A stretch of DNA of 23,970 bases. It comes from a virus. Made by a program: the position numbers and the translations under genes. Positions 1-23,024 of this stretch are shown here, one piece after another. Where the stretch lies: IMG/VR virus record IMGVR_UViG_3300046488_000037, positions 1 to 23,970 of that record, one strand, 5' to 3'. The notes under the pieces were generated by a model. That model had not been told where the DNA came from and did not search any database. It worked only from the letters and a program-made list of their open reading frames with translations. Numbering within the stretch: position 1 is the first letter of the stretch; every line of letters starts with the position of its first letter.

Positions 1-157
1 TACGGCAAATACGGACTTCCCGGTTCCAATGGTCTTGGGCAATATCAAGATGCTGGTTGATTTCTGTCAACGAGTATCGAGAGTTGCTTGGATCGTTCAA
101 GTGATCGGAAATCAGGACTTGAAGATCGCTCAGAGTCTCAGGATAAGGGTTGCTCAT
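1..157 (-). CDS. Head-tail adaptor-like protein, N-terminal part (cut by window edge)
   Basis: Only the first 52 residues are inside the window; the gene continues beyond position 1. The start ATG (157-155) overlaps the TGA of the upstream glycosyltransferase as ATGA, so translation is probably coupled. The visible protein begins MSNPYPETLSDLQVLISDHL and continues with a D-x-S-N-x-R-Y-S-x-T-E-I-N-x-x-L-D-x-A-Q pattern. This resembles the N-terminus of small phage neck or adaptor proteins (helix, loop with R-[WY]-[ST], then a helix ending in 'A-Q'). Family knowledge: such proteins join portal to tail and lie downstream of the capsid gene, as here. The assignment is by resemblance only, and the C-terminal half is not available. 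Confidence 0.55.
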   Translation of the reverse strand, partial: MSNPYPETLSDLQVLISDHLNDPSNSRYSLTEINQHLDIAQDHWNREVRICR

Positions 158-1305
158 GAAGCTACCTCCCGCAAAAGTTGAAGATATGTCCGTGCCGTCT
201 TAGGAACGGAAAAGTCACGCTTAACCGTGTTGTAGGCCGATACACCCATGGCCCTTCTGTTGTCTTCGTTCTCAATGAGTTCCGAAAGACGATCTTTCCA
301 TTCGTCAATAGAATCCGCTAAATACCCGTTCTTTCCAGATTCAATGACACGTTTGAAATCAGGCAATGGAGATGCAACAGTAGGGACTTTCAGAGCCGAA
401 TACTCGAGCCAGCGAAGGTTCGATTTCCCACGATTGAAATTGTTGTCTACGAGAGGCGCAATCCCGATATCAAAGCAGTACGAAGCCATGTGCCGTGGAT
501 ACAGATTGATCGTCGCCCACTTGTGCGTCCAGTACACTTTCGGCATGTCCTTAAACACTTGAGGAACACCGTGGATACAGTAAAACCAGGCGTTCTTGTA
601 CTTCTGCGTCACATCCATAATGGCGGAAGCAACCATCTCCAAATCAGCCGAATGAGCCCCAGACCCAATCCACCCAATCCGAATCCGGTCCCCGCGTTTC
701 CTTGGCCTACTGGTCCATTCCTTCAGATCAATGCTGTTGGGAATAACGTAGATGTGTTCGTTGAATTCCTTGTATTGCTCCGCAAGATAAGGCGTAGAAA
801 CAACCAGACCGTCAGACATTTTGATTTGTTCCATCGCAATCTTGAAACGCGTAGACCCTGGACGATACCCGTTATGCGCTTCGTTCGATACCGGAACGTC
901 AGCAACGTAATCGTCGATCTCCATCAAGAACGGTTTTTGATGGCGTTCTCGCATGTCCTTAAACAGATTGAAACTATGGGGGAAATCCAACGCTTGCCAA
1001 ACCACCACATCCGATGTCTCGCAGAGCCAGTCAATGTACTGCCGGATGGTTAGAACTTCATGCAAAGACTTGACTGGAATGCGGGGAATGTCGTCCAGCA
1101 TATCAACTTGCCACGGATTCTGTACCGTCTCTTGGCTGGAATAGGGCCATAAATGAGTCTGCACTCCAGGCCATTTCCGCATCGCCCAAGCAAACGCACC
1201 CATGCGGTAATAAGATACACCGCTGACCGTCGTACAGATGAACGTGACCCGAAGCGTCTTAGACTTTTGTCGGGAAACGGTTTTCGATTCCATTAAGATA
1301 GGCAT
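154..1305 (-). CDS. Glycosyltransferase, GT-B fold (group 1 type)
   Basis: 383 residues, the usual length for a GT4-like glycosyltransferase. The N-terminal half begins after a short basic tail with a beta strand (RVTFICTTVSGVSYYRM). A nucleotide-sugar-binding C-terminal domain starts near residue 190 with VIPNSIDLKEW and IRIGWIGSGAH, motifs typical of group 1 enzymes. Near residues 300-320, 'KSNLRWLEYSALKVPTVAS' matches the conserved acidic motif that contacts the sugar donor. Last of four glycosyltransferases in the cassette; it overlaps the preceding GT2 gene by 47 nt and the adaptor gene by 4 nt. A second in-frame ATG at 1293 is an alternative start; neither has a strong Shine-Dalgarno sequence. 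No membrane segment is visible, so it is probably cytoplasmic. Donor and acceptor cannot be read from the sequence. Confidence 0.85.
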   Translation of the reverse strand: MPILMESKTVSRQKSKTLRVTFICTTVSGVSYYRMGAFAWAMRKWPGVQTHLWPYSSQETVQNPWQVDMLDDIPRIPVKSLHEVLTIRQYIDWLCETSDVVVWQALDFPHSFNLFKDMRERHQKPFLMEIDDYVADVPVSNEAHNGYRPGSTRFKIAMEQIKMSDGLVVSTPYLAEQYKEFNEHIYVIPNSIDLKEWTSRPRKRGDRIRIGWIGSGAHSADLEMVASAIMDVTQKYKNAWFYCIHGVPQVFKDMPKVYWTHKWATINLYPRHMASYCFDIGIAPLVDNNFNRGKSNLRWLEYSALKVPTVASPLPDFKRVIESGKNGYLADSIDEWKDRLSELIENEDNRRAMGVSAYNTVKRDFSVPKTARTYLQLLREVAS

Positions 1306-2011
1306 TCTTTAAGTTTTCCACTTCTTTCTTGTCTCGCTTTTCTTCCGTCTCAGACCCGAAAATGGTATTGTCGCCATGTTCCCGAAGAGCATAAATCCTG
1401 TTTCGCGTCAGCGGTGTTTTCGTAAAACCGAACTTGTACCCTTTCGTAAAACAGTCCCATTGGAACTTCCAGTCATCCAATCCAAGACACGAATAATCAC
1501 CTTCGTCGTAAAGAACATTGACAGCAACACCCTTCCGATACGCCATCGTGGAATGAACGATGTAATTCTCTTTCTTCTTGATTGACAGTTCCTTATTGAA
1601 CGGACCGGCTGGATGGTTCCCAATCACATTGTCATTCTCATCTATAACATGACAAGGACCATAGACGACATCGGGATTCTTCATCTGAAAAAGAATCAAG
1701 GTATCCCGAACGCGGTTCTTCGTCGCCTGATCATCCGAATCAAGGACAAAGATATACGGCGACTGAGCCATGGAATTCCCATGGTTTCGCGCCGCCGAAC
1801 GGTTCTTTGGAATAGGTGAATGAAGCATCTTGACCCTGGGATCGTGTTCGCAATGCCATTGAATCAATTCCCTTGTTCCATCCGTCGATCCGTTATCAAC
1901 AACAAGAATCTCGATCTCTTTGACGCTCTGCGCCCGACAGGAAAGAATCGTCTGCGCTAAATATGCATCAGCGTTATAGGCGGGAATAACAAAACTCGCT
2001 CTCAGTTTCAT
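1259..2011 (-). CDS. Family 2 glycosyltransferase (GT-A fold)
   Basis: 250 residues. The N-terminus ASFVIPAYNADAYLAQTI is the classic GT2 opening strand. It is followed by EILVVDNGSTDGT (nucleotide-binding D), RSAARNHG, and the metal-binding DXD motif in YIFVLDSDDQA near residues 90-96. A later GLDDWKFQWDCF segment could supply the catalytic base. The start ATG overlaps the TGA of the upstream glycosyltransferase (ATGA), and the 3' end runs 47 nt into the next glycosyltransferase, so the genes are translationally linked. Soluble, with no membrane helices. Family knowledge: GT2 enzymes transfer sugar from a nucleotide donor; the acceptor is unknown here. Confidence 0.88.
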   Translation of the reverse strand: MKLRASFVIPAYNADAYLAQTILSCRAQSVKEIEILVVDNGSTDGTRELIQWHCEHDPRVKMLHSPIPKNRSAARNHGNSMAQSPYIFVLDSDDQATKNRVRDTLILFQMKNPDVVYGPCHVIDENDNVIGNHPAGPFNKELSIKKKENYIVHSTMAYRKGVAVNVLYDEGDYSCLGLDDWKFQWDCFTKGYKFGFTKTPLTRNRIYALREHGDNTIFGSETEEKRDKKEVENLKNAYLNGIENRFPTKV

Positions 2012-3507
2012 AGAACACCCACTCTTGTTGGCATGAGACTTCTCAATTTCGCTTCAAACGCTTTCGGATCAACCTGCTTGACGTAGTAATCCTGCGCCTC
2101 TTTGTTGAACTTCAAGTACCGACCATCACGAATGCTTCGGATCAGGGCCTGCTTGAAGTCCTTCATCCCGATGTTCATATTGAAGTTTCCGCAGTAGAGA
2201 GCTTCCACATTTGAGATGATGTTGCGGCCATTGATTAAAAACCGCCTGATCCCTTCATTTACCGTCGGATGAGCCTGGAAAGAAACCAATAACGAATACT
2301 TTGAAATGTCGGCTATCGGGTTCGTCTTGAAATTCAAATCATCAATCTGAATGTAAGGCAAGTCCTGTTTTATCGTCTTGAAGATCGGTAAGTAAGACTC
2401 ATCAATGTCCAGAAGAACACGGTAGGTGTCAGGCAACTTCGTTTCAGCGTCAATTACTTCGCTCGGAAGCGGAACAATCTCTGGAGGTTTCATCCCAACA
2501 AACTCAAATAGTTTGCCAAGACGCCTCTGCGAAACCAACTCGTTCACGAAATGATGGTCGACACACCCCTTCATCCTTTCGAGCATACCAACAGACTTCA
2601 AGAACCCGTAGTTCTCAAGCCCCGCAATGTCCCACGGCATCCAGTATTGGACACGAACACAATCTTTCGGAGCGCCGTCAAACCAAATGCTCTCGCCAAA
2701 CCCCAAATTAAAGGCCAACTTATAGTCATCCACGCGGAAGTCTAGGAACTGAGAGAAGTCGGCATTGAGCATCTTGGCAATGTGCAGACCCTTCATTCGT
2801 TCCATGGCAGACCCTACTACGATCTCCCGATGTGGAATGCCATGCTTATCACGAACTTTCCAATGCGTACTTCGGAAGTTTTCTGGATTCCACGCTTTCC
2901 CTGTAATGGAATCTGGATTGGGCGGTTCCGTGATGTATCCGAATCCTTCAATGAACGATCCCTTTCCTCCATTTTTGACAATCGTCAACCACATGTCCCA
3001 GTCCTGGGCTCCAATAAGCGATTCATCGAATCCTGGAAACAGTTCTCGCTTCATGGGGAAACTCGTGGCGATGAAGTTGTTGCATGTCAAAAGGTACGGA
3101 TCAAAAGGATACCCCGATATCCCATTGGAATGGTCCTTGAATTCGTATCCGGAATAAACGAAATCCGCATCCGTCGATTGGAATTCCTCAATCCATCGTT
3201 TCGCCATCTCCGGTTTGGCATAACAATCAGAATCCCAAAAAGACAAGTATTCGCCAATCGTCAACTTGGCCCCAGCATTTCTGGCTTTTGGAGCCCCACC
3301 ATGCTCGATCTCAAGGATCTTTTCAGGAGATGTGTACTTCCTGACGATCTCCAAGAGTTCGAGTTCCGGTGGCCCGTCAAAGACAGTAATGATCTCAATG
3401 CGCCTATAAGACATATCCCGAAGTGTTTTCAAACACCGTTCCAGAACGTCGGGAGCCGTTTTGTATATCGGGATGACAAATGAGATTAGCGGATCTTTTT
3501 TAGCCAT
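2008..3507 (-). CDS. Large family 2 glycosyltransferase with C-terminal extension
   Basis: 499 residues. Residues 1-220 form a GT2 catalytic domain: LISFVIPIYKTAPDVLERCL, IITVFDGPPE, APKARNAGAK, and the DXD-like motif in YLSFWDSDCYAKPE. A GAQDWDMWLTIV segment near residue 165 fits the acceptor-side 'ED' region of GT2 enzymes. Residues from about 225 to 499 are an extra region, far longer than a minimal GT2, with YWMPWDIAGLENYGFL in the middle and a C-terminal part (LLVSFQAHPTVNEGIRRFL, RNIISNVEAL) that looks like the donor-binding half of a GT-B enzyme. The protein may therefore be bifunctional. The ATG overlaps the preceding TAA by one base, and the end overlaps the next GT by ATGA. The two-domain reading is inference. 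Confidence 0.82.
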   Translation of the reverse strand: MAKKDPLISFVIPIYKTAPDVLERCLKTLRDMSYRRIEIITVFDGPPELELLEIVRKYTSPEKILEIEHGGAPKARNAGAKLTIGEYLSFWDSDCYAKPEMAKRWIEEFQSTDADFVYSGYEFKDHSNGISGYPFDPYLLTCNNFIATSFPMKRELFPGFDESLIGAQDWDMWLTIVKNGGKGSFIEGFGYITEPPNPDSITGKAWNPENFRSTHWKVRDKHGIPHREIVVGSAMERMKGLHIAKMLNADFSQFLDFRVDDYKLAFNLGFGESIWFDGAPKDCVRVQYWMPWDIAGLENYGFLKSVGMLERMKGCVDHHFVNELVSQRRLGKLFEFVGMKPPEIVPLPSEVIDAETKLPDTYRVLLDIDESYLPIFKTIKQDLPYIQIDDLNFKTNPIADISKYSLLVSFQAHPTVNEGIRRFLINGRNIISNVEALYCGNFNMNIGMKDFKQALIRSIRDGRYLKFNKEAQDYYVKQVDPKAFEAKLRSLMPTRVGVL

Positions 3508-3788
3508 TATTTACATACCGTCCCAGTCGATAGAATGAATGAATTAGAATTCACTGATCCCGTGGAAATGCATTCTGTTCCTGATCCACCATTTGCAACG
3601 CAGTTGTAGCACCAGACTGGATATCCAATCGTAGGAGCCGTTGAATTGTTGATGTCAGTAACCGTCATCGTATCGTAAGAGAAGTTTATATACCCAAAAC
3701 TCGTTGGCTGATAAGTCGAAGCTCCTAAGAACGCAATCCCTTCAAACAGAATGAAGATTGTTAAAAGCGACCCAAGTACCTTTTTCAT
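3507..3788 (-). CDS. Small exported or membrane-anchored protein, unknown function
   Basis: 93 residues. The N-terminus MKKVLGSLLTIFILFEGIAF has two lysines followed by a hydrophobic stretch, ending LGASTYQ, which fits a Sec signal peptide or a single membrane anchor. The mature part is rich in Ser, Thr and Asn and carries four cysteines, two as WCYNC and two nearer the C-terminus (TECIS, TVCK), so disulfide pairing outside the cytoplasm is plausible. A clear ribosome binding site, AAAGGAGC, lies 6 nt before the ATG, overlapping the end of the upstream gene. It sits among glycosyltransferases and could be their substrate or a virion surface protein; this is inference. The family is not recognised. 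Confidence 0.7.
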   Translation of the reverse strand: MKKVLGSLLTIFILFEGIAFLGASTYQPTSFGYINFSYDTMTVTDINNSTAPTIGYPVWCYNCVANGGSGTECISTGSVNSNSFILSTGTVCK

Positions 3789-3789
3789 T

Positions 3790-4023
3790 TTAAGCTCCTT
3801 TAATAACCGTGTTGACCAACGCTCCTAAAGATCCATCAAGAGTTGGTTGGTTGTTTGCAATCACCTGTGCATAAGCCTGGATCGTCGCCGCTGTCGTGCC
3901 ATGCGCGAAAAAAGGCGTTACTGTAGGAAACGTATGCTGACCATCGCAGATGCTCAGATCAACAAAGATGTTCGTCCCATCATCCACAATAGACCCGATC
4001 TTTACCGTATACGGATTAGACAT
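3790..4023 (-). CDS. Small phage protein, unknown function
   Basis: 77 residues beginning MSNPYTVKIGSIVDDGTNIF. The composition is that of a small beta-rich structural or assembly protein: alternating hydrophobic strands, few charges, a Thr-rich middle and a helical end (IQAYAQVIANNQPTLDGSL). One cysteine only, no signal peptide. A strong GGGAGG site lies 7 nt before the ATG. It overlaps the glycosyltransferase upstream by 8 nt and is followed at once by the exported protein, so both tiny genes are embedded in the sugar cassette. A small virion or tail-associated component is possible. I do not recognise the family. Confidence 0.65.
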   Translation of the reverse strand: MSNPYTVKIGSIVDDGTNIFVDLSICDGQHTFPTVTPFFAHGTTAATIQAYAQVIANNQPTLDGSLGALVNTVIKGA

Positions 4024-4843
4024 AACAAACCTCCCTCTTTCGAATAGCCTCGAATTCCTCTTTGTGCTTTGTAATCACATCCGGTATTTGTTCATCGGAT
4101 GGAACAAATTCAAACTTCCCGAACTTTTCGTTTCCAGGATCAAGAATGACCCTCGGATGGTAAGATGCCATCTGCTCAATAACTCGATCATCAAAACCTG
4201 GGTGTTGAGTCTTCAAACAGAGCTTCATCTTCTCTAAACGCCTTCGATATGGTTTCAGCTCGCAATAATGATTGATCGAAAAACCGGACTCGCGTACTTC
4301 AAACGGATATTTCAAGAACTGGTCATCGTGATGCTTGTAGGCATTTCCCGTAATATCACGAAAGTAAAAATCCTCGCTATGCGATCCGTATGCCCCATAG
4401 TAGTGAAGTCCGAACTTCTTGGCATGGATGTTCTTCCAGCAAGAGGCTCTCCCATTGCTGATCTTCGTGTGAAAGTCTACGGCGAAACTTGTGACGTTCG
4501 TCCACCAGACTAACGGGCCTTCTTCAAGAACCGCGCCCTTAGTGATGATCATGTCGGGGTGAAGATATAGGATCGCGTCGCCTTCGGATTCATCAACAGC
4601 GTCATTGTAAGCCCGGTTATAAGACGCCATATCCAGAGGATCAAACGCATACTTCGACGAAATAAAGAACTTTAGTTTGTTTCCAAACCGAGGTTTAAGA
4701 TATTCCAGTAATTCAACCGTCCCATCATTGGAATCAGATGCCACGGTGTAAACGAATTCATGGACAAATGGAGCGGCGGCGTAAATAGAATAGCCCAACC
4801 AAGGAAACTCGTTTTTCACTGGAGCTATCACGCTGATCTTCAA
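4016..4843 (-). CDS. Glycosyltransferase, GT2-like, TTG start
   Basis: 275 residues. It begins MKISVIAPVKNEFPWLGYSI, then SDSNDGTVELLEYL, the GT2 nucleotide-binding region. DAILYLHPDMIIT near residues 90-102 occupies the place of the DXD motif but reads HPD, so the metal-binding residue pattern is altered. The start codon is TTG at 4843, supported by GGAGG 8 nt upstream and by a TTGA overlap with the methyltransferase stop. The C-terminal half (EDFYFRDITGNAYKHHDDQF and beyond) has no motif I can name. It follows the methyltransferase and precedes two tiny proteins. Function as a glycosyltransferase is likely; activity is uncertain because of the HPD motif. Confidence 0.78.
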   Translation of the reverse strand: MKISVIAPVKNEFPWLGYSIYAAAPFVHEFVYTVASDSNDGTVELLEYLKPRFGNKLKFFISSKYAFDPLDMASYNRAYNDAVDESEGDAILYLHPDMIITKGAVLEEGPLVWWTNVTSFAVDFHTKISNGRASCWKNIHAKKFGLHYYGAYGSHSEDFYFRDITGNAYKHHDDQFLKYPFEVRESGFSINHYCELKPYRRRLEKMKLCLKTQHPGFDDRVIEQMASYHPRVILDPGNEKFGKFEFVPSDEQIPDVITKHKEEFEAIRKREVCYV

Positions 4844-5415
4844 GCCGTGGCCTCCACTGTCAAAGAAATAGGCATGTGGAATACTGTGTCAACGAGCCGC
4901 GAACAATCATTAATCTCGTACGGCATCCATTTGATCTTTCTGCAATCGTCAAATCCGGCGTTGCTCAAAAGAAGACTCAGGATCGGGTACGTAAATCCGG
5001 TGTAATGGTACGCCATATCGTAACCCTGATCGCCCCAGAGCAAATGAATCAGAAAATCTGTCAGCATCCCGTAATCGTGATAAAGCCTTATCGCGGCGTC
5101 AAAGTCAGGGACGGAAATGTAGCACTTCCCACCCTTCGACAAAACGCGTCGCCACTCTTTCAAGATCGCCGGGGTCTTCAAATGCGAGGAATGTTCAAGA
5201 CAATGAGATGCGTAAATCTCACTGACTGACCCATCTTTGAACCTGCTTAAATCCGTAATGTCCATGACGTAATCAACTGTTGGGCCAGCCTTGAAGTCAA
5301 CCGTCTTAAAACCAGGAATGACCGTATCGCGACCGCCTAAATTCAGACGTAAAGAATCCCCGGCGACAGAAGAAGCCTTGCTCCCAAGAGCCTCGACTAT
5401 CGCCGGGGAATTCAT
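4840..5415 (-). CDS. Class I SAM-dependent methyltransferase
   Basis: 191 residues from the ATG at 5415. Motif I is LRLNLGGRDTVIPGFKTVDF, a variant seen in methyltransferases of sugar gene clusters. YVMDITDLSRFKDGSVSEIYASHCLEH gives the acidic post-I residue and the motif IV region. LKEWRRVLSKGGKCYISVPD is the typical Methyltransf_11 segment. An upstream in-frame GTG at 5469 would add 18 residues but would lie inside the capsid gene; the ATG, two bases after the capsid stop codon, is preferred although its ribosome binding site is weak. It overlaps the next glycosyltransferase by 4 nt. It probably methylates a sugar intermediate in the same cassette; a DNA target is unlikely because no DPPY or PC motif is present. 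Confidence 0.83.
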   Translation of the reverse strand: MNSPAIVEALGSKASSVAGDSLRLNLGGRDTVIPGFKTVDFKAGPTVDYVMDITDLSRFKDGSVSEIYASHCLEHSSHLKTPAILKEWRRVLSKGGKCYISVPDFDAAIRLYHDYGMLTDFLIHLLWGDQGYDMAYHYTGFTYPILSLLLSNAGFDDCRKIKWMPYEINDCSRLVDTVFHMPISLTVEATA

Positions 5416-5417
5416 TT

Positions 5418-5736
5418 TTATAGCACTTCGTGAGTGAACAAAAGTCTGCCAGCCGACGGGTTCAAACACACCGCCACGCCGTAGATTTTGTACGTCACGT
5501 CAATCAACTGATCGAACGGATCAGCCTTATCAGGCCCGCGAGCCACCATCATCTTGACGTTTCCATCAAGCGAAGTGAACCCGAACGCCTGCTGGCCGAA
5601 GATGAAGGTCGCATTGACGGAATGAGCCGTGACCGCATATCGCGGACAAAGAGCCGATTGAACAAACCGGACTCCGTTGACAGCCATTCCAACCTCGCCC
5701 TTGTATAGCGTTTCCTTGCTGTTCTGGTACTGATTC
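5418..5736 (-). CDS. Major capsid protein, N4-gp56 family, exon 2
   Basis: C-terminal part of the capsid protein, joined to exon 1 (6402-7144) by group I intron splicing. It reads NQYQNSKETLYKGEVG, then NGVRFVQS, ATFIFGQQAFGFTSLDGNVK and DPFDQLIDVTYKIYGVAVCL. This is the typical order for the end of N4-gp56 capsid proteins: Y-x-G-E-[IV]-G, G-V-R-F-V, G-x-x-A-[FY]-G, then D-P-x-x-Q and a final strand. Without splicing it has no proper start: the only initiator-like codon is a TTG at 5741 directly after the endonuclease TGA. Joining exon 1 ending at 6402 to 5736 keeps the frame and gives a 353-residue protein. The exact splice sites are inferred; 6410/5738 is an alternative junction that is also in frame. 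Confidence 0.78.
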
Positions 5737-6401
5737 CACAATCATCCATTGGATTTCTCCGACGGCTGGACTTTATCTTCACCCTTTTCAGGGGCAGAAC
5801 GTAAAGTCTCTGAGGATTCTTCACGGAAGTGATTTGTCCCTCTACCATTAAAATTCCAAATCCGCCGACACAATTCTTTCTCTGACTCTGAATATCGAAT
5901 ACCAGGCCCTTTTGTTAGGCGAGATTCGACAAACTCTAAGAGAAGAAGTGCGCGTTCTTTTTTGGAAACAAGGTAGGGAATTATCAACTTCAGGAATCTG
6001 ATCGCTCTTTTATAGCCAAGAATCGTGAGGTTCATCTTGGTTAACGTGGTTGCCGTTTTAGGAACCACATGAAGGTAATAAGCAATCTCATATTTCTTGA
6101 AAACCGCCATCACCTTCCGAACAATCAATTCATCCGTGTTGGTTATGTTGATATTGGGATGAGCGTAAGGATGTTTCCGCGTCTTTACACCTTTTGCTGA
6201 CACGGTAATGCATCCTTCGCCGTCTACAATACCTCCCAACCAACTCAGATCGTGAAGCCTTTCCTGCGGATTGCCCAATCTTTCGCTCTGTTCCATAGTT
6301 AGGGGCGAAAGCTCTAAGGGTGTTCCCGCATATAGTTCTGTATTTATTTGCACAGAGTTTCCTCTGAGGGGGACCGGAATCGATTTGAAAGTTCATCAAC
6401 G
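5737..6401 (-). ncRNA. Group I intron in the major capsid gene
   Basis: On the minus strand the conserved elements P, Q, R and S occur in order, and the helices pair by eye. P2: CAGAG-GAAA-CUCUG (6366-6353). P3: CAGAAC (6340-6335) with GUUCUG (5800-5795). P4: UGCGG (6330-6326) with CCGCA (6269-6265). P5 extension: CUUUCGC (6311-6305) with GCGAAAG (6286-6280). P6: CUUCACG (6257-6251) with CGUGAAG (5825-5819). P7: GACUUUA (5808-5802) with UAAAGUC (5775-5769). P8: CCCU-GAAA-AGGG (5793-5782). The S element reads AAGAUAAAGUCC. A possible P1 pairs exon GGAGUU with GAUUCC (6381-6376), giving the required U-G pair at the 5' site. A terminal G at 5737 puts the two capsid exons in frame. The core is strongly supported; the splice sites could shift by several bases. 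Confidence 0.88.
5742..6353 (-). CDS. LAGLIDADG homing endonuclease, intron-encoded
   Basis: 203 residues from GTG 6353 (184 from ATG 6296). WLGGIVDGEGCITV near residues 38-51 is a LAGLIDADG motif with E46 in the catalytic acid position, followed by a beta-strand region (HPNINITNTDELIVRKVMAV). Only one motif is visible, so the enzyme should act as a homodimer. It would cut an intronless capsid gene and drive copying of the intron. The reading frame runs through ribozyme elements: P3-P5 and Q underlie the first 35 residues, and P6', R, P8 and S underlie the last 26. A possible ribosome binding site, AGAGGA, and the GTG lie inside the P2 hairpin. Some family members also act as maturases; this cannot be judged here. 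Confidence 0.86.
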   Translation of the reverse strand: MQINTELYAGTPLELSPLTMEQSERLGNPQERLHDLSWLGGIVDGEGCITVSAKGVKTRKHPYAHPNINITNTDELIVRKVMAVFKKYEIAYYLHVVPKTATTLTKMNLTILGYKRAIRFLKLIIPYLVSKKERALLLLEFVESRLTKGPGIRYSESEKELCRRIWNFNGRGTNHFREESSETLRSAPEKGEDKVQPSEKSNG

Positions 6402-7144
6402 AACTCCCAAATACTTTGATCCTTCCATGTTGGATCTTTCATCAGACAGTGCAACGCATTGGGATGCGCGTATCCGACGAAATACCCGTCTGCGAAAGGC
6501 TTGGCGAACTTCGACCGCAGAACCGTAACGGTCTTGCGAACAGAGTACACCGATAGTCTCGCTGAAACGCTCGCGGCTGTCTTGGAAACGGCAGACAACG
6601 CCGTGCAAGAAGTCCCGAACACAGCAGGAAACTGAAACTGCAAGTCCGACAAGTTATGCGTTCCCGTAATCGCTGAAAAAGCCGACGCCGGAGACGACAT
6701 ATACCCGGAGAAGTTCGTGGTGGACACCTGGTTCTTGTTGATATGCGCCTTGAAAATACCCATCTGGCACATACGTTCTACCGTCTCAGCCGCAGAATCA
6801 GCCAACCTTTCCATGCCACCGTTAACGGCATCAAAGATCGTCGTCATCGTGGCAAGATCAGTCAACTGAATCCCGCGTCCGTATCCGGCAATCGTTCCGA
6901 CAACTCTGCGAGACGAAAGAGCAACCAGAGAATTCGCCGTGCCTTCAGACAAGGCCGAAGAAGCTCCCGTGATGCGGTTCCATCCGTTAAAAGTCGCCGT
7001 GGTTCCAGTTCGGAGCGGGAGTTCATCCCTCTGCGCGAACTCAATCAGCGGCGTTTTCGGAACGAGTGTCGCTAAAATCTTTCGGCTAAACCACGCCAAA
7101 AGAAGGTTATTCAAACTACTCGTTGTTGAAGGTGTATCAGCCAT
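6402..7144 (-). CDS. Major capsid protein, N4-gp56 family, exon 1
   Basis: About 247 N-terminal residues of the capsid protein. MADTPSTTSSLNNLLLAWFS is followed by LVPKTPLIEFAQRDELPLRT, typical of N4-gp56 proteins (a helix, then 'P-L-I... F-A-x... P-x-x-x-G-x-T-x-x-F'). Further along come VVGTIAGYGRGIQLTDLATM, a helix beginning ERLADSAAETVERM, and finally YVGYAHPNALHCLMKDPTW, the conserved 'hP-D' region before the break. Read without splicing, the frame runs on into the intron and stops at 6344 after unrelated residues. The order portal, scaffold-like protein, capsid is normal for phages. Only a weak AAGG lies upstream of the ATG. The missing C-terminal portion is exon 2 at 5418-5736. Confidence 0.84.
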
Positions 7145-16645: not shown

Positions 16646-17074
16646 ATGTTCAAACTAATCCCCGAATTACAGGCACGAGTAGACGAAGCACTCAGAAAGA
16701 AATATCACCTGCCAATACGCAAAAAGAGAATACCGTCAGTAAATAAGTTCATCAGAAAGTATTCAAAACGGATTACAAATAAAACTCCTGTTCCCTCTGC
16801 ATCAGGAACACTCGAATATAAAACATGGACGAATATGAAGCTACGTTGCTATGACTCAAGAGCAGGTGGATATGAATACTACGGCGGCAAAGGAATAAAG
16901 GTCTGTAACCGATGGCTTAAAAACTTCCAAGCCTTTGTAAACGATATGGGGCCTAGACCTTCTATCGACTACAGCATAGACCGTATCGACTCAGATAAAG
17001 ATTATGAACCGTCGAATTGCCGATGGTTGCTCAAGAGCCTCAATAGCGGTCGACACAAAAGAAAAGGTCTTTAG
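16646..17074 (+). CDS. HNH-type (His-Me finger) endonuclease, probably a homing enzyme
   Basis: 142 residues. A basic N-terminal 50 residues precede YKTWTNMKLRCYDSRAGGYE and YYGGKGIKVCNRWLKNFQAF, then DYSIDRIDSDKDYEPSNCRW. The last block is the signature of a phage HNH group ('D-R-I-D-[NS]-D-x-x-Y-x-P-x-N-C-R-W'), and the W-x-x-M-x-x-R-C and Y-G-x-[KR]-G-I blocks before it belong to the same family. Such enzymes are usually free-standing mobile endonucleases. No Shine-Dalgarno sequence precedes the ATG, which sits 6 nt after a -10 box. Its reading direction is opposite to the genes on its left, and it appears to be an insertion between them and the next plus-strand genes. Confidence 0.83.
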   Translation: MFKLIPELQARVDEALRKKYHLPIRKKRIPSVNKFIRKYSKRITNKTPVPSASGTLEYKTWTNMKLRCYDSRAGGYEYYGGKGIKVCNRWLKNFQAFVNDMGPRPSIDYSIDRIDSDKDYEPSNCRWLLKSLNSGRHKRKGL

Positions 17075-22727: not shown

Positions 22728-23024
22728 ATGTCCGTTTACCGTGAATCTTGGAAAGAAAGTCTGTACGTTAGGCTCTCTGAAATATATGGAGAAAAATGCT
22801 TGGCCTGTTGGAGGACGTTCACAATAGGCCAATTGAAAGAAAAGCACCCATTAACAATAGACCATATAAAACCTCTTTCTAAGGGCGGTACTTGGAACAT
22901 CGGAAATCTTCAGCTTTTATGTCGCCCCTGTAACTTCAGGAAGCATAGCAAGGTGACAGATTTCAGGAAATGCGCGTATCCGAAAGTGAAACGCCACGAA
23001 AGACCGCGCAACTCTTATGCGTGA
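22728..23024 (+). CDS. HNH endonuclease
   Basis: 98 residues. GEKCLACWRTFTIGQLKEKH gives the first Cys pair (C-x2-C). PLTIDHIKPLSKGGTWNIGN carries the catalytic D-H and the Asn, then LQLLCRPCNFRKHSK completes the zinc ribbon and final His/Asn region. This is a complete canonical HNH domain. It stands free of any intron, between a ribbon-helix-helix gene and a run of tiny genes, with its own promoter. A mobile homing-type nuclease is likely; a packaging HNH is unlikely because it is about 10 kb away from the terminase genes. Confidence 0.87.
   Translation: MSVYRESWKESLYVRLSEIYGEKCLACWRTFTIGQLKEKHPLTIDHIKPLSKGGTWNIGNLQLLCRPCNFRKHSKVTDFRKCAYPKVKRHERPRNSYA

Follow-up and report, generated by a model that had tools for sequence, protein, structure and literature searches.

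The window analyzed here, a stretch of 23,970 nucleotides that makes up an entire viral record, carries a region of head genes on an uncultured tailed phage genome. Upstream of the capsid gene, this region encodes the large subunit of a terminase (13141-11663) as well as a portal protein of SU10-like type (10765-8552). The major capsid gene itself, of the N4-gp56 type, is divided into two pieces in different reading frames of the minus strand, with the helices of a putative group I ribozyme between them, as the first-pass annotation had described. The insertion falls between capsid codons 242 (D) and 243 (W) and contains a long open frame resembling a LAGLIDADG endonuclease. Coordinates of all features are summarized in Table 1.

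The frame directly downstream of the capsid gene (5418-4840) is that of a methyltransferase (Methyltransf_11); further frames within 154-5418, several in number, resemble glycosyltransferases. An HNH endonuclease gene (22728-23024) and a 142-codon frame (16646-17074, YYGGKGIKVCNRW...) with no match in Pfam were also observed in the window.

Table 1. Predicted features of the interrupted major capsid locus, in the order of the minus strand.
Feature	Position	Strand	Basis or remark
Exon 1, major capsid gene	7144-6419	minus	codons 1-242, ATG 7144, last base U 6419
Predicted group I intron, 680 nt	6418-5739	minus	first base C 6418, last base omega G 5739
P1 extension, 12-bp hairpin	6412-6401 / 6394-6383	minus	MFE fold
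Internal guide sequence AUUCCGGUCC	6380-6371	minus	10/10 pairing with ligated exons GGAU/UGGAAU
P10	guide 6380-6375 with exon-2 start UGGAAU	minus	ligated-exon pairing
P1	guide 6374-6371 with exon-1 end GGAU	minus	U-G at 5' splice site; free folding
P2 hairpin CAGAG-GAAA-CUCUG	6366-6353	minus	MFE fold
P3 5' strand CAGAAC	6340-6335, pairs with 5800-5795	minus	covariation, 13 introns
P4	6330-6326 / 6269-6265	minus	MFE fold; conserved
P5 and extension	6320-6318 / 6276-6274; 6311-6305 / 6286-6280	minus	MFE fold
LAGLIDADG homing endonuclease ORF, 184 aa	ATG 6296 to TGA 5742	minus	PF14528, phrog_5046 and I-CreI-type profile match
P6 CUUCACG/CGUGAAG, 7 bp	6257-6251 with 5825-5819	minus	sequence and coordinates
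P7 5' strand GACUUUA	5808-5802	minus	covariation; model R1
J7/3 (1 nt), then P3 3' strand GUUCUG	5800-5795 (P3 3' strand)	minus	covariation; model R1
P8 hairpin	5793-5782	minus	model R1; MFE fold
P7 3' strand UAAAGUC, within S element	5775-5769	minus	model R1; MFE fold
P9 hairpin CCGUCGGA-GAAA-UCCAAUGG	5765-5746	minus	MFE fold; model R1 alignment
Exon 2, major capsid gene	5738-5418	minus	106 codons and stop, first codon TGG

Intronless relatives of the capsid gene were retrieved by searching IMG/VR with each capsid half. In one of them (L002), the region of the junction reads ...TGGAAAGAT TGGAATCAG..., while the window reads ...TGGAAGGAT/CAAAG...GATTG/TGGAATCAG..., with slashes marking the intron ends. 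At the junction itself, the relative has AAAGAT TGGAATCAGTATC without an insert, the other relatives showing near-identical variants, and the window has AAGGAT/CAAAG ... GATTG/TGGAATCAGTACC. Since these empty sites lack the insert, both ends of the intron are fixed, at 6418 and 5739. The splice sites had previously been placed at about 6402 and 5736; comparison with the intronless relatives moves them to 6419/6418 and 5738, by 16 and 2 nt, respectively.

Joining of the exons yields a capsid protein of 348 residues rather than the 353 given before. Its alignment with intronless capsid proteins, proposed earlier as a check, was clean: identity to ten relatives was 77-90% over nearly the full length, with four gaps at most and mostly one. 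The spliced protein scored 115.3 bits against the N4-gp56 family model TIGR04387, above the curated cut-off of 60, whereas exon 1 (59.7) and exon 2 (40.4) each remained below it. Automated annotation would thus probably miss the gene, much as had been anticipated. The two matches adjoin on the model, exon 1 covering positions 12-206 and exon 2 positions 208-315, and phrog_1357 is divided likewise at position 232 (24-232 and 232-341). A tblastn search of 50,697 deposited phage records with exon 1 gave no match. A likeness between the unspliced tail of exon 1 (NRFRSPSEETLCK) and exon 2 (NQYQNSKETLYK), which suggested a duplication, was matched by 2-5% of shuffles and was treated as chance.

The helices named in the first-pass annotation, P3, P6 of 7 bp, P7 and the P8 hairpin, together with the S element AAGAUAAAGUCC, are all present in the sequence. 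MFE folding of the 5' part of the intron returned P1, its extension, P2, P4 and P5, and folding of the 3' part returned P7, P8 and P9; P3 links the two parts. P1 appeared in the free fold as GGAUC paired with GGUCC. The guide pairs with the ligated exons at all ten positions, a result also attained by about 1% of shuffled intron ends. The last base of exon 1 is U and that of the intron is G, which agrees with known group I introns.

A P7.1/P7.2 insertion between P7 and P3 is associated with group I subgroup IA. When this insertion was looked for in the window, it was found absent, the P7 5' strand and the P3 3' strand being separated by one base (J7/3). In a recent database, subgroup IA2 makes up over half of the group I introns from viruses (PMC11835236).

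Covariation was evaluated in 13 introns of the window's type, chosen without regard to P3. All six P3 pairs were formed in 12 of them, while with shuffled partners five or more pairs were reached in a mean of 3.9 of the 13 introns (maximum 9 in 2000 shuffles). Of the six pairs in each helix, five in P3 and three in P7 were exchanged on both strands. For P3, P4 and P7 together, 95.5% of cells were paired (all these counts refer to a gapless composite of helix strands and not to full sequences), compared to 26-48% when partners were slid by one to three columns, and 43 cells were doubly changed against 11.8 in shuffles. P4 hardly varies and so tells little. In the second alignment, which comprised 17 relatives and excluded the window, 97.0% of the P7, P8 and P9 cells were paired, with 70 doubly changed against 19.8 in shuffles.

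The covariance model built from this second alignment, R1, from which the window had been left out, matched the 3' core with 48.9 bits at 5823-5729 (E 3.8e-13, E-values of this model being rough according to the tool); the next match reached 11.3 bits. Rfam, in contrast, gave no match in the window at its gathering score. Pieces of the general group I model RF00028 were recovered in a lax E-value search, amid chance snoRNA matches, with 16.6 and 13.9 bits against the required 50. They flank a gap of 430 nt, and the P4/P5 part (6330-6265) is among the matched segments. The sub-threshold result is probably explained by the endonuclease gene, which fills the P6 loop and splits the match, and the RF00028 gathering score is not a defining property of group I introns. 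The covariance check suggested in the first-pass annotation succeeded with the family-specific model, although the Rfam model stayed under its gathering score. Among 341 control windows, a loose scan for the R/S-element motif matched 27, of which two or more were real introns; the intron claim is therefore based on the covariance model. When viral contigs were searched for exact matches to the core TCAGAGACTTTACGTTCTG, no further copy turned up.

The endonuclease frame had been overlooked when the insertion was first recognized as a group I intron. It is open from GTG 6353, and the ATG given in Table 1 is favored as the start because the N-terminus from there resembles that of its nearest relative, L029. 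The protein matched PF14528 (LAGLIDADG_3) above the cut-off with E 1.6e-6 and phrog_5046 with E 1e-17; the label of the latter family, HNH endonuclease, is probably an error, as the family matches a LAGLIDADG-domain protein. Among solved structures, profile matches were obtained to I-MsoI, I-CvuI and I-CreI (E 1e-13 to 5e-9), which likewise have a single LAGLIDADG motif and about equal length. Known members of this group come from introns in the rRNA genes of algal chloroplasts, whereas the one in the window is encoded in a phage protein gene. The motif WLGGIVDGEG keeps its catalytic acid, and WL(G/A)GI(V/I)DGEG is found in all six aligned relatives. Most of the gene is contained in the P6 loop (between 6251 and 5825). 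As the frame starts inside P5 and continues through P4', P6, P7, P3', P8 and P9, some ribozyme segments double as coding sequence.

The insertion is best read as a group I intron, in view of the empty sites, the family model and the guide pairing, and the locus very probably represents a mobile one in the major capsid gene. The intron contains an endonuclease gene, and in the alleles that lack the intron the site is intact. According to the proposed mechanism, the intron RNA would fold after transcription, and the guide would pair with the last bases of exon 1 to form P1, with the U-G pair falling at 6419. Exogenous guanosine would attack at 6419, and the freed exon would then attack after the terminal G at 5739. 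Ligation of GGAU to UGGAAU would restore the capsid reading frame, giving a predicted product of ...AAGGAU joined to UGGAAUCAG.... In a co-infecting relative, the single-motif endonuclease of the I-CreI/I-MsoI type would cleave the capsid allele that lacks the intron, and the intron would be copied into the cut allele during repair (homing). Read from the DNA itself are the empty site, the precise position of the junction, a core that is conserved and covaries, the pairing of the guide and an intact endonuclease frame; splicing in the cell, cutting and homing are expected here by analogy with known introns of group I and enzymes of the LAGLIDADG family.

Other explanations of the locus were also considered. 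A dead intron or a dead endonuclease, leaving a defective phage variant whose capsid gene is merely interrupted, would agree with the occurrence of the insertion in one contig only and with the small departures of the S element and P7 from the consensus of the relatives. This is improbable, however, as the core helices all pair and the guide fits the junction exactly, the endonuclease frame stays open for 184 codons with its LAGLIDADG motif retained, and both exons are unbroken and similar to intact relatives. Still less probable is a gene in pieces, in which two separate capsid proteins assemble and a free endonuclease gene lies between them with no RNA splicing. Exon 1 does continue into a frame of 266 residues, and a possible TTG precedes exon 2. 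This arrangement would nevertheless leave the intact group I core, the guide and the U and G bases at the splice sites unexplained; moreover, exon 2 starts mid-fold, and no separately encoded homologue of it was present among the relatives fetched.

Inteins too can contain LAGLIDADG endonucleases, but the frame of exon 1 reaches a stop at 6344, and exon 2 is read in a different frame from the endonuclease, so that no single precursor protein could be produced, and Pfam returned no intein domain. An assembly or frameshift error would have to account for insert ends that are exact group I-type boundaries and not a base slip. An intein or such an error is accordingly the least likely of these explanations, with a negligible chance of being correct.

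A group I-type intron in a phage capsid gene has precedents. For mycobacteriophage LittleE (Cluster J), splicing of a capsid intron was demonstrated by RT-PCR and N-terminal sequencing, and a capsid intron of lactococcal phage Tuc2009 is cited in the same work (PMC3706429). The LittleE intron resembles that of the window in being group I-type, in residing in the major capsid gene, in its LAGLIDADG-like (I-CreI-related) endonuclease and in its U/G ends. It differs in that the endonuclease frame lies on the opposite strand, the phage infects Mycobacterium and the intron type was called unclear. A tblastn search of the phage collection with P0001 gave no LittleE match.

The introns of T4 td, nrdB and nrdD, of the SPO1 and Bastille DNA polymerase genes and of Twort likewise pair a ribozyme with a homing endonuclease, in host genes that are conserved and essential (PMC11878797). 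Those introns mostly have DNA-metabolism genes as hosts and HNH or GIY-YIG enzymes, in contrast to the capsid gene and LAGLIDADG enzyme of the window. Among the intron nucleases of Bastillevirinae, LAGLIDADG enzymes are rare, with DNA polymerase as the host gene (PMC11878797). An endonuclease of an intron in a phage RNA polymerase gene was shown to serve as a weapon against a co-infecting phage (PMC11620839). The N4-gp56 family member of the window differs from the usual form in being coded in two exons, and no published case of an intron in an N4-gp56 capsid gene was found. Nor was a capsid-specialised intron or endonuclease lineage described in the searchable papers, among which subscription journals are thinly covered. 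The intron of the window thus joins the known phage capsid-gene introns, and it is the pattern around its endonuclease that is newer.

Relatives of the endonuclease were sought in IMG/VR and in genomes with P0001 and then with a six-sequence profile. The nearest, L029, shows 42-44% identity and is the sister of the window's endonuclease in the tree with a support of 98; it resides in a group I intron in a gene of another capsid family (phrog_283). In the profile search, 31 of 48 distinct viral loci interrupt or adjoin a major head protein gene (by PHROG or Pfam), a lower bound since seven unscored loci of the profile group were counted as non-capsid, in a set that retains near-copies and comes from viral contigs, which are enriched for head genes. 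The capsid families at these loci were phrog_1357, 283, 9953, 10/617, 1328 (SU10 MCP), and 267 and 371 (Mu gpT-like), some of which cross-match one another. Exceptions in the profile group included L064 (methyltransferase), L108 (DNA polymerase), L093 (an apparent terminase neighbor, by eye) and uncalled loci.

Among more distant LAGLIDADG relatives from the first search, only two of 18 (L051 and L052) adjoin a major head gene; the difference from the profile group was significant (Fisher p = 2e-4), with the two groups scored by somewhat different choices of neighbors. On the tree, which has many weak forks, the capsid label changes 14 times compared to 23.6 in shuffles, and none of 500 shuffles was as low. 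The capsid host gene, earlier called unusual, had in fact already been reported for introns (PMC3706429), and within this endonuclease lineage it is the rule.

The introns of the lineage appear to be inserted at varied points in capsid genes of unrelated families. One of them (L079) lies at nearly the same place as that of the window, its exon 2 starting WHQYTDPQ... against WNQYQNSK.... The introns of L029 (about 3945/4640) and L079 (about 2924/3585) are related and interrupt different capsid families, both apparently after GAGCU with GGCUC in the guide, a possible sign that they spread by way of short matches between sites. Seven further endonucleases (L062, L080, L088, L092, L097, L100 and L104) directly adjoin major capsid genes at loci where R1 detected no core, and they look free-standing.

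Several loci deserve separate mention. An SU10-type capsid gene in L077 (IMGVR_UViG_3300036760_000327, 1200-4900) is apparently broken by several group I introns, with R1 matches at 1353, 2402, 3447 and 4701, LAGLIDADG frames in two introns and a further core near 1620 by eye. Other multi-intron genes were indicated by rows of R1 core matches, six in L110 (3442-5993) and three in L073 (3471-5013). An SU10-type capsid gene of L072 has, at about 2281-2341, an apparent further group I core that lacks an endonuclease frame and lies upstream of the endonuclease-bearing one. Five Acidobacteria contigs (L111-L114 and L118) encode the same class of endonuclease with weak core matches of 17.6-25.7 bits, and four of these contigs have tRNA-His genes close to the locus. 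The idea that these loci are introns of a tRNA gene was not supported, as the nearby tRNA genes are intact and none was seen split.

The recurrence of these endonucleases in or beside capsid genes is a strong lead and not a finished survey. That they form an I-CreI-type LAGLIDADG lineage specialised on phage major capsid genes, in introns as well as free-standing, and moved between capsid families, is a tentative proposal to which we give slightly less than an even chance. The role of such a lineage may be to convert capsid genes in co-infecting relatives, or to put them out of action.

Taken alone, the intron of the window adds one case to the phage group I introns that interrupt essential genes. 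Automated calls lose the capsid gene, as its halves fall just under the cut-off and the intron is missed by the standard RNA model; because capsid genes serve as markers in virus surveys, hidden introns would bias the counts. If the pattern holds, these loci would provide a tractable set for the question of why mobile introns settle on particular genes. It could then also be asked whether introns jump between non-homologous genes via short matches of guide or target, and whether they serve phages as weapons against each other during co-infection.
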